DNA of 40,000 nt, taken from Cryptococcus deneoformans JEC21 (taxonomy: Eukaryota > Basidiomycota > Tremellomycetes > Tremellales > Cryptococcaceae). Position 1 is the stretch's first letter, and each line of letters opens with the position of its first letter. Location of the stretch: assembly GCF_000091045.1 (NCBI RefSeq), contig NC_006679.1, forward strand, positions 243,941-283,940, read 5' to 3'. Position numbers and translations under genes: made by a program. The notes below the pieces were generated by a model that was not told the DNA's origin, searched no databases, and saw only the letters and a program-made list of their open reading frames with translations. Positions 33,307-40,000 of this stretch are shown one piece after another.

Positions 33307-36300
33307 CTACGCCATCGACTCATCTTTGTCTCTCCAGCAACCAGACAGCCTGAACCCTTTCCCAGATGTCTTCACAAACTTCTCCTTCAACTGTCCCACC
33401 CAAATTTTATCCAACTCATAAACTACATAGCCCATCGCCGCCATTAGGCTCATGAAGATACAGTTGACTCCCAAGATCATCATATTGCCATTCGCGCTAT
33501 CACCCGATTGTTTGGTGATATACGACGCAATGTCGCGGAAATAGAGCAAACTGGCTGTGAAGGTGACAACGACGACCAAGATGAAGAGCCATTTCAGGGA
33601 CGTTCGGACGCCCGGGAGGTGATATCGACCTTGTCGCCCACTGTTTGACTCTTTGTCGGTTGTTTCAGAAGAAGACCTTTTGGAGAGAGACCGAATTCGT
33701 GGGTGAAGAAGGGCGTACCAAGACCCTGCTATTGTGAGAAGGAAAAGGAAAAATAGGAAGTTGACGATGGCGAACGCCCCTTCGGCGTCAAGACTTTCTG
33801 CTACTTCTTTCATGGATTTTTGGGAGGAGGCGACATCAGGCAAGCTAGAGAAGGACGTGGACGATCCAGTACCGACAATGTATATTAGGCTCATCATCTG
33901 GCGAATAATGAGCACGGCGCCGACCAATTGGATGGAAAAAATGAGGATACGCAAGTATGTCCAGCGGGTTGAGCGACGCCAGAAAACTCGAGGAGTGGAG
34001 AAATGGCGACCCATAATGAGTACCCGTAGACTGCCTCGGCCATATTCTTTGAAGTCCTGCCACATATGTTTCCAATAATTTGTCCCTTTTGGTTCAGCAG
34101 CGACGCTCAGTGTCTTGTGAATGAGAAGACCCATCATAGGGATGCAAATAATGCTCCACATGCTGATAAATGCAAAGAAAGCTGTGGGCTCAAACGATAG
34201 GTTCTTGACGAGATCTGAGAACCAGCTTTGGGTGACGGAGAGATCAACTGGGGTACTGTTGCTAATGGCACGCTTGGTGAGTACTGCTGTTCCTGCAGCT
34301 ACGCTGAGCATTTCGAAGAGCTGACGAGAGACTTCGATATATAGTGCTAGAGTCGCTACAACAAAGAAGGACCATACAGGTGCGATTTTGAGGATGTGCC
34401 AGGATGCCTTCACAAGGGTCACTGGTCCCAGCGCAATCCTTGAATTGTATAAGGCTCTGTTGATACTGTCCTTTTTCTCATCACCAGTTATCTTGCCCTC
34501 CTTGGCCCTCCCACCTCCACTCCCTTGGTCACCATCCCGTTTTTTCCCGTTCTCCTTGGATTTCGCATCTCTGTGCTTCACCTCATCTCGTTCATTCTCT
34601 CTTTTCTCATCAGCTTCTCGCCCTTTCGCCATATCTTCAAGTCTCTGCTCGCGCAGCTCCTTCTTGGACATCTCAGGGATTATCTCTTCATCCAAATTCT
34701 CTTTACGACCTCGTCTATCCTCGTGCCCGAATCGCCTGTGCTTCTTCCTTTTTTGATCGGTTTCGTGCTGCCTGTCAGGTTGTGTTTTGGGACTAGACAG
34801 TTCATCCCCTGTACGAGATGGTGGTGCGAGAGGCGGCCGTTGTCCCTCAGTCGAGTCTGCTTTCTTTTCCTGGCTCTGGCTATCCGCTGCGGCAGGTTCA
34901 TCATCACTTTGTTGGTCACTTCCCGCCTCGTGAGTGGATGGTTTCTGTGCCTGATCTTCGTTTGCTCTTTGTTGACGTTCCCTGTCAGACTGATTCTTCC
35001 AATGATCCCGCGCGACTTCAGCAGGGGTTCGATCTGTGGATTCGGTTGACACCTCATTCTCATTTTCGGAAGAGGTAATTTCAACCGGCGACCTTAGAGG
35101 ATCGGGACTATCGGTTCCTTGTTCTGGAGAAGGCTGTTGGCGGGGAGATAACTGTAATGGAGGTTGTCTGCTAGGCTGCTGCGAGGCAGGCTCATGCGTG
35201 TCTTCATCTGACGTGATGTGGATAGAAACAATGTCGTTCGTGTTATCTGGCTCGTACCCAAACGGTATCCTGCCAAGGTCTTCTGCGTCTCTGTCCGAAT
35301 CGTCGGCTCCTTTATTTTTTTGTCTCCTTGCATACTCCTTTCTGTGGTTGATTTGAATGTCATCCTCGTTGCGCTGCCTCAGCCTCGCCTCTTGATACTC
35401 GTGAGCAAGCGCCGGATTGTCAGCTAAGGCATTCTTGATTGCCACTGTCTGGTCAGCCTCCATATTCTTTATGTTGATCATTTGTGCATGAGTCTGATCA
35501 GCAAATTCCTCTTCGTCAGAGGAATTGATGGCGGTGCTTCCACTCAAGGGCGGAATGGACTCGCCATCATTGTCAATAGGTTTGTTCGTGACAATGCGGG
35601 TGGGGACCGCGCGTTGTCTCGGAACAACGACATTGTCTTGGTCAGGGGAAATGGGATCGGCAAGCTTCTTGGGACTACGAGGCATAGTTGCTCGTACTAT
35701 GTCTGTGTCCGCCATTCTCTCTGATTCAACATCATCTTGGCTGAAATTAAAGGGCTTCATATCCATTTTTGTTGTCTCCTCCATGATCCTCTCTCCACTT
35801 TCTTCATGCCCGCTTTCATCTAAGTAATGTGCCGTTTCGGCTAAAAGACGCTGCCTACGCTCATTAGTCAGATGTTCCACATCGATCTCGTCGTAGGTAT
35901 CAGTCTCGCCCAGAAAGGAGGGGTTATCGCTCGCTGGTCCCTGACGATCCTCGTATGACATAAAATCAAGGGTACGAGGACCACTAACACTTTCCAATCT
36001 CCGGCGTGCTGCTTTGGCACGTTCGAAGTCTGTTCCAGTTTCCTCTATCCTTTCCCTTTCTTCGAAAGGAACGGAGTCGAGCTGTGGTCGTTCTCTTTCT
36101 CTGAGCAAGTCTTTGGATCGCACAAGTGCGTTTCCATCAACCTCAGCTTCCTCTTCGCTGTCTGATGACTCGTGCGGCACCGAGCTTAGTGCTGGTCGTT
36201 CCCGCTCGCGAACACGTCCTAGTAATGCTCCAGTAGAGGAGGGTACGAGCTGAGAACTCCTCTCCTCTATAGTCTGTCGGTCGTGGAGAGACATTGAGTC

Positions 36301-39300: not shown

Positions 39301-40000
39301 ACTTCACCTTCTGTTCGATTATTGTTTTTCTCTTTGTTCTTTTTGCTGGAGTTTTTAGCTTCCACTTTCTCATCTTCAGACTCTTCGATCTCTTTTTCGA
39401 TCTTCTTTTTGACAGTTTTTCCTGTTTTCGGATCCCCAACAAGTATTTCCACCTCTTCCGATTTCTTGACCTTTTCAGTACTGTTTTCCTTCTTTTCTGC
39501 CGTCTTCTCAATTTTCTCCTTCTTCTTTGGCTTTCCCTTTGGCTTTTCATCTTCAACGATGTCCTCGTCCTCAAATGCCGCCTTGACTTCGTTTTTCTCT
39601 TCTTCCTGTTCTTGTTCATTGGCCGTTTCCTTCTTCTTTACATTCCGGATTTTGACCTTGCTGTCCGAGTCATTCTTCTTCATCCATCGAGCCTCATCAA
39701 CTTCTTCTATATCAAAAGAAGTAGTAGGTCTGGACGAGACCTCCTCAAATCGTACCTTGGAGGTCATGGGGATTTTAATTGGCAACGGAGGAATTGTAAC
39801 TTTGGAATGCTTTCTGTCATCAGCCTTCATCTTCTCCTCTAGGTCAACCCCTCCCTTTCTAATTTGGTTAACTTTGTTGGGGGCTTTGAGGGGCGAGAGC
39901 AGTATGGGAATCTGATCGTCACTGCGATCCTTTGGATCTCGCACGTAGATCGGGTTGAGATTCTGCTTCAATGTTAGCTGTATAAAGATCTCACTTTTCT
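33307..40000 (-). CDS. Giant charged, disordered protein with C-terminal multi-pass membrane region (5' partial)
   Basis: Four exons on the minus strand (40000-38069, 38004-37861, 37800-37741, 37691-33307) join in phase into 2172 residues, and the frame is still open at the window edge, so the true N-terminus is outside. Residues 1-300 (in-window) are Lys/Glu-rich with long charged runs; 300-1790 are Arg/Glu/Ser/Gln-rich and predicted disordered, with a degenerate repeat around RPxxDSxxxxxR. From about 1790 the character changes: six hydrophobic segments at roughly 1816-1833, 1882-1902, 1960-1984, 2017-2040, 2078-2097 and 2115-2136, then a short basic tail. No family was recognised. The layout suggests a membrane-anchored scaffold with a very long cytoplasmic or nucleoplasmic arm (inference). 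Exon joins are supported by three good GT-AG pairs, including GTGAGA at 37740. Splitting into two genes is the main alternative. Confidence 0.72.
35930..36600 (-). repeat. Degenerate protein repeat within the giant gene
   Basis: Translated copies, in order: RPVFDLTDLSEEQIAEYE, RPVIDSMSLHDRQTIEER, RPALSSVPHESSDSEEE, RPQLDSVPFEERERIEET, PRTLDFMSYEDRQ. They are spaced irregularly and differ at the DNA level, so this is an old, diverged array rather than a recent tandem duplication. Confidence 0.55.

Follow-up and report, generated by a model that had tools for sequence, protein, structure and literature searches.

The minus strand at the right-hand end of the window (the whole stretch of 40,000 nucleotides of Cryptococcus deneoformans JEC21 analysed here, C10:243941-283940, from a 14-contig genome of 19,051,922 bases) encodes a giant protein in which a long charged arm precedes six membrane segments, and which carries an invariant Kex2-type site, L-x-K-R, in its predicted first lumenal loop. 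The protein is real and conserved and, as far as these searches go, undescribed; its novelty lies in the combination of its parts, and the function proposed for it is hypothetical. Directly observed are the open frame, the six segments, an N-terminal membrane segment in the relatives, an alternation of charge across the membrane domain and the invariant L-x-K-R. The explanation that we favour, to which we give about even chances, is that of a seven-pass protein cut by Kex2 in the late Golgi, whose cytosolic arm, pinned at its two ends, would act as a cortical scaffold at a post-Golgi membrane.

The list of open reading frames contains two long frames on the minus strand, one running from 37761 to 33307 and the other from the window edge to 38052, and two short exons sit between them. 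Joined, the four exons make one frame whose 5' end lies beyond the window edge. Among the 16 splice combinations tried, the eight with an acceptor before 37800 keep the frame and end in a single terminal stop, giving 2145-2172 residues in the window depending on splice-site choice, whereas the frame was broken in all eight with an acceptor before 37831. The sites that keep the frame are, for the intron between exons A and B, the donor GTAAGT at 38068 and an acceptor before 37977 or before 38004; for that between B and C, the donor GTCCGT at 37860 and the acceptor before 37800; and for that between C and D, a donor GTGAGA at 37740 or GTGAGA at 37758 and the acceptor before 37691. On the minus strand, the probable exon A, which encodes charged arm, was placed at 38069..39962 from its open frame, its donor and the splice signals at the window edge, and exon B at 37861..37977 from the frame, the splice sites and the agreement of its junction residues with P0004, the C. 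deuterogattii protein. The acceptor of exon B is uncertain (37977 or 38004); that before 37977 suits P0004 better, which reads 'NPRPPSARSM' where the window reads 'DPRPPSARSM'. Exon C lies at 37741..37800, and its alternative donor at 37758 keeps the frame with 6 residues fewer. Exon D (33307..37691) is open without internal stops and ends at the stop codon 33307-33309; read alone from 37691 to 33307, it supplies the last ~1,460 residues, including the later arm, all six membrane segments and the tail.

The frame of exon A is open to 39998, and the stretch 39963-39994 resembles the end of an intron, with GTGAGA at 39994, CTAAC, and CAG before 39962. Because of these signals, and because P0004 aligns to the window frame only from residue 13-14, the first 12 frame residues at the window edge may be the non-coding end of a further intron. 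With the acceptor before 37977 and exon A starting at 39962, the protein has 2151 residues in the window; residues are numbered here on the 2163-residue reading, with the frame from 39998. Directly past the window edge the genome reads N, and the start of the gene thus lies outside the sequence seen. The initial annotation had taken the four exons as one gene, a reading supported by the frame, which is kept through all introns, and by the annotated relatives. The 2172 residues that it counted correspond to one of the eight in-frame combinations, but both the acceptor before 38004 and the first 12 residues are doubtful.

Protein searches returned 17 different proteins (P0001-P0017), of which P0001 is the window's own. 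The 11 of these with names come from Cryptococcus (5) or Kwoniella (6), and K. shandongensis belongs to the Cryptococcaceae. Two of the protein searches scored only the ~8,000 candidates sharing most words, while the third, with 6,977 candidates, reported no limit of this kind; relatives in other fungal families may lie beyond the sensitivity or the length limits of these searches. The C-terminal domain had a single match in its own 19.05 Mb genome, the gene itself, which is apparently single copy. A profile search for the membrane domain as a standalone protein, among proteins of ~0.55-1.75x the domain length (7,994 candidates sharing most words), returned one protein, P0017, whose end is a broken-off membrane domain. 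The database model of P0012 (C. gattii VGV, 3589 aa) begins with another protein, which bears numerous repeat-domain accessions (WD40 by Pfam number), and this fusion is probably a gene-model error.

The six membrane segments of the C-terminal domain score 1.87-2.25 by mean Kyte-Doolittle hydropathy over 19 residues. Segment 1, the second of the whole protein if the N-terminal segment of the relatives is counted, starts at residue 1805 and lies at 34330..34386 (1.87); it is followed, all on the minus strand, by segments 2 at 34120..34176 (2.17), 3 at 33904..33960 (2.08), 4 at 33724..33780 (2.25), 5 at 33544..33600 (2.10) and 6 at 33421..33477 (1.97), and by a C-terminal tail of 37 residues, much as the initial annotation had described it. 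Charges were summed over 14 proteins, window included, with P0001, P0005 and P0017 left out and P0009 dropped since its first segment was missed and its loops were shifted. The sums of K+R/D+E were 164/110 before segment 1, then 55/57, 157/47, 36/50, 97/28 and 19/27 in loops 1-5, and 114/52 in the tail, such that a basic excess recurs on every second stretch (arm end, loops 2 and 4, tail), although the contrast between the stretch before segment 1 and loop 1 is less sharp than elsewhere. This alternation is what the positive-inside rule leads one to expect if the arm, loops 2 and 4 and the tail are cytosolic, which is the topology predicted here. N-glycosylation sequons occur in the first lumenal loop of 8 of 15 proteins (the loop of P0009 being misplaced) and are not conserved.

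Ten of the relatives extend to the N-terminus (P0004, P0008-P0016), and in every one an A-x-R-E-A stretch leads into a hydrophobic run. In the nine that start with this stretch the run lies near residues 11-31, with scores of 1.88-3.01, and the residues after it are basic or of mixed charge; in P0012 the A-x-R-E-A start falls in the region of residue 966-968, inside the fused model. Since the relatives carry a hydrophobic segment N-terminal to the arm, the arm would be a loop anchored at both ends, with its N-terminal anchor seen only in relatives. This segment and the charge alternation together point to a protein of seven passes, with the N-terminus outside, the C-terminus inside and the arm as a cytosolic loop. 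The membrane-tethered arm proposed before is thus retained as a membrane-anchored charged arm, but not its free end, since the relatives add an N-terminal membrane segment.

The arm itself, disordered-looking and predicted to be cytosolic, was delimited by composition in tenths, charge and hydropathy at 34387..39962 (minus strand, introns inside these coordinates), and its ~1,790-1,800 residues in the window agree with the ~1790 residues of charged low-complexity sequence first estimated. The charged fraction is 0.24-0.58 per tenth of the window arm, and in seven of seven full-length relatives measured the charge peaks in the third or fourth tenth (0.48-0.62 charged). Short islands stand out within it, on the minus strand. 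Alignment with seven full-length relatives revealed 'LNPIYVRDP' at 39930-39959 and 'VYEKYTDSNGKKRLRR' at 38967-39014, both in exon A, which also contains a K/E-rich block. Further along, 'RPVFDLTDLSEEQIAEYELTGSLPPALRADYDL' lies at 36481..36579, its pattern being present in 5 of 10 proteins searched (window included), and 'RRFGHEDRRGRKEN' at 34696..34737, shortly upstream of the membrane domain, where FGH[EN].R recurs in six of the 10 proteins, again counting the window; neither pattern arose in 200 local shuffles of the window arm. An SPI-x-L island was found in 9/9 full-length relatives searched, an LTDL...YE-x-TG-x-LP stretch in 5/10 proteins searched (window included), and a YEKY island is kept in the alignment of seven relatives and the window. 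The order common to the relatives across the introns is LNPIYV, YEKY, then LTDL and FGH where present. Compared with C. deuterogattii, the arm is 59-66% identical per 200-residue block (two blocks aligned at 115 and 50 of 200 positions only) and the membrane domain 78%, so the arm, judged by this alignment, is conserved yet faster-changing than the membrane domain. An internal repeat pair, RERERP-x-L, is weak, with a score of 60 against maxima of 49, 50 and 55 in three shuffles. Opposite the K/E-rich portion of the arm runs a 291-residue open frame (window 39040-39915, plus strand) that looks like a by-product of codon composition.

The predicted first lumenal loop contains L-T-K-R-A at 34267..34281 (minus strand). 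In alignment A4, whose 16 rows include the same gene twice (window and P0001), the L, K and R are identical in 16/16 rows and an A follows the R in 15/16, with T, A or S between L and K (P3); the linker around the site is variable and has insertions in Kwoniella. L-x-K-R was present in 17/17 database proteins, the window's own (P0001) being one of them. Its probability in a shuffled loop is 0.012 (20,000 shuffles drawn from 15 loops), although the rows come from two related genera, are not independent, and owe part of their identity to shared descent. The next-best dibasic pair in the window's domain, kept in 13/16 rows, falls within a loop predicted to be cytosolic. In the excerpted text of PMC8528282, the Kex2 motif is given as Arg at P1, preferably Lys at P2, any residue at P3 and an aliphatic one, preferably Leu, at P4, and Kex2 is located in the late Golgi and prevacuolar compartment; an excerpt of PMC6339444 describes high conservation of the KEX2 site (KR or RR) across fungi. 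The site found here has Leu at P4, Lys at P2 and Arg at P1 in a linker whose exposure we judge from its variability, its insertions and its form, a coil between helices, in a poor AlphaFold model (the second, pLDDT 48.4), and the charge counts, by their alternation, would place loop 1 in the lumen. The kexin P domain was found at one place in the genome, in two pieces. Cleavage in the late Golgi is proposed as the step that would best account for a protease optimum kept invariant in a predicted lumenal linker, and L-x-K-R would be the point of the cut.

Searches for a known family agreed with the earlier impression that the protein belongs to none with a name. No Pfam family reached the cut-off with the window frames, full-length P0004, P0008 and P0009 or 8 domain sequences; no NCBIfam family did so, where cut-offs were shown, with 8 trimmed domain sequences or seven full-length relatives; and PDB sequences gave no near match, the best profile match (E 0.32) being a chance one to rhodopsin. 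The initial annotation had asked whether a search of the C-terminal domain would reveal a transporter or an Ndc1/Pom-type family, and Pfam reached neither. Pfam includes nuclear-pore anchor families; the matches that it gave for the window frames, full-length P0004, P0008 and P0009 and the 8 domain sequences were all at chance level and well short of cut-off, with none to an Ndc1/Pom-type family and none to TMEM16 (anoctamin). Transporter and channel families gave only weak Pfam or NCBIfam matches, far below cut-off where bits were shown, and no DNA-binding domain reached the Pfam cut-off in the window arm, P0004, P0008 or P0009. Both AlphaFold models are of low confidence (pLDDT 45.3 and 48.4), so a remote fold relationship, for example to channels, may exist; with the second as query, Foldseek found nothing at E <= 0.001.

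A handful of scattered matches were treated as chance. CysZ (NF003433) appeared at E 6.7e-4 in one of 8 trimmed domain sequences, and, when the seven relatives that supplied these sequences were rescanned at full length, only in P0008 (E 0.082, 12.5 bits against a cut-off of 140); FILTED (NCBIfam) appeared in 2/8 members, with a best E of 0.0042. P0010 gave two more NCBIfam rows over its N-terminal segment and the charged residues at its start, LIC_11490 (E 8.8e-4, 19.4 bits against a cut-off of 100) and ArsS_fam_HK (E 0.0069). SP_C-Propep, DUF6704, DUF4271 (best E 0.0039, 1/8), UPF0182 and similar rows were each confined to a single or a few members and were far below cut-off where this was shown.

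In the favoured explanation, the short N-terminal segment would cross the membrane first, leaving the N-terminus outside; the charged, disordered arm, ~1,800-2,300 residues long and cytosolic, would come next, and then the six segments, with the C-terminus inside. The protein would leave the ER and be cut by Kex2 after L-x-K-R during passage through the late Golgi, giving a two-pass chain with the arm and a five-pass chain, which may remain associated. The arm would then form a cortical scaffold at the plasma membrane, endosome or vacuole and gather partners via its short conserved islands. We chose a scaffold at a post-Golgi membrane because the arm has islands and no recognised domain; such a role is what one assumes by default for a disordered arm and is hypothetical, and topology, cleavage and location are likewise inferred. 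A bolder version, possible but doubtful in our judgement, is a cortical coat of the Cryptococcaceae in which the convertase-split seven-pass protein forms a polyampholyte brush grafted at two points (a loop of ~1,800-2,300 residues) and assembled only after passage through the Golgi.

The initial annotation suggested that the protein tethers its arm to the ER, nuclear envelope or plasma membrane. A multi-pass anchor with a long charged cytosolic arm suits tethers generally, and the plasma membrane is still a candidate, but a protein that stays in the ER system with its arm as an uncut polyelectrolyte seems unlikely to us: the invariant optimum Kex2 site in the predicted lumenal loop (16/16 rows) would be purposeless there, Kex2 acting in the late Golgi and prevacuolar compartment, and no Pfam family was reached at cut-off. 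Still less likely, we believe, is a channel or transporter whose transport unit is formed by the six C-terminal segments and whose cytosolic region is oversized. An array of six segments with both ends inside and a short last outer loop is indeed the order of a six-segment channel, and a structural likeness to an SK channel chimera was found, at chance level only (Foldseek E 5.3, from a poor model); however, no Pfam or NCBIfam family reached cut-off (among full-length proteins CysZ gave at most 12.5 bits against 140), the best PDB-sequence profile match was at E 0.32, and segment 4 is without a row of basic residues.

The same lumenal cut could instead be the first step in a regulated release, followed by intramembrane cuts that free the arm as a soluble regulator. 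This follows the logic of SREBP/ATF6, in which a subtilisin/kexin-type lumenal cut lies beside a cytosolic part, and the conserved islands could act once freed; yet after a single cut the arm would still be held at the N-terminal segment and at segment 1, so two more cuts would be needed, and Pfam found no DNA-binding or other domain in the arm, which makes release improbable. Lastly, exons A-C could be a separate transcript, with two genes read as one. Seven models begin inside the arm, among them P0001-P0003 and P0005-P0007, P0007 being an NCBI model of C. depauperatus, and the fusion of P0012 to a further protein illustrates that models at this locus can be wrong. The 1,200-odd residues upstream of the membrane segments share exon D with them, so this possibility could touch the upstream exons only; against it, none of the three introns breaks the frame, P0004, P0008 and P0009 each cover the same region in one protein, and the islands conserved upstream and downstream of the introns keep the same order. 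We regard it as very improbable.

Ist2-type ER-plasma membrane tethers share with it a multi-pass domain and a long disordered cytosolic region. The disordered part of Ist2 is a free C-terminal tail and its fold is that of TMEM16, whereas the arm of the giant protein lies between two membrane anchors and the protein has no Pfam family match. SREBP and ATF6 are membrane-bound regulators with a lumenal subtilisin/kexin-type cut beside a cytosolic part held by membrane segments, and a putative cut of this type beside a membrane-held cytosolic part is the likeness here; unlike them, the giant protein is without a recognised DNA-binding domain, and its arm is held twice and is far longer. Six-segment ion channels have six segments, both ends inside and a short last outer loop, which resembles the order and predicted sidedness of the C-terminal segments, but there is no sequence match and segment 4 has no voltage-sensor-like charges. 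Kex2-processed fungal precursors (K2PP effectors and KEX2-processed repeat proteins; excerpts of PMC8528282 and PMC6339444) share the canonical L-x-K-R / KR site, predicted to encounter Kex2 on the secretory route; they are secreted as there described, whereas the giant protein is multi-pass, with its bulk predicted to be cytosolic, has a single conserved site and lacks repeats between sites.

We thus have a very large, apparently single-copy and nameless protein, found by these searches only in the family to which a human fungal pathogen belongs, and its invariant Kex2-type site narrows the question of its function to whether it is cut and where it goes. If the favoured explanation is true, a fungal proprotein convertase would act, unusually, on a polytopic membrane protein with a mostly cytosolic bulk, and the protein would offer a study system for a disordered chain tethered at two points.

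The adjoining plus-strand gene, at ~31-32.8 kb, carries the domain of a thiamine-pyrophosphate enzyme and probably corresponds to CNJ00950 / CNAG_04659, a pyruvate decarboxylase listed in an excerpt of PMC3617100. The numbers CNAG_04658, CNAG_04660, CNJ00960 and CNJ00940 occurred in no main text searched, a weak absence since they were guessed from that of this neighbour. Elsewhere in the window, a 471-residue stop-to-stop frame at 20644-22059 (minus strand) has a Ras/Rab domain only at residues 348-471, its upstream part being a long extension or intron sequence, and at 1728-2630 (plus strand) a match to Pfam GSH_synth_ATP marks an exon of a glutathione synthetase of the eukaryotic kind.
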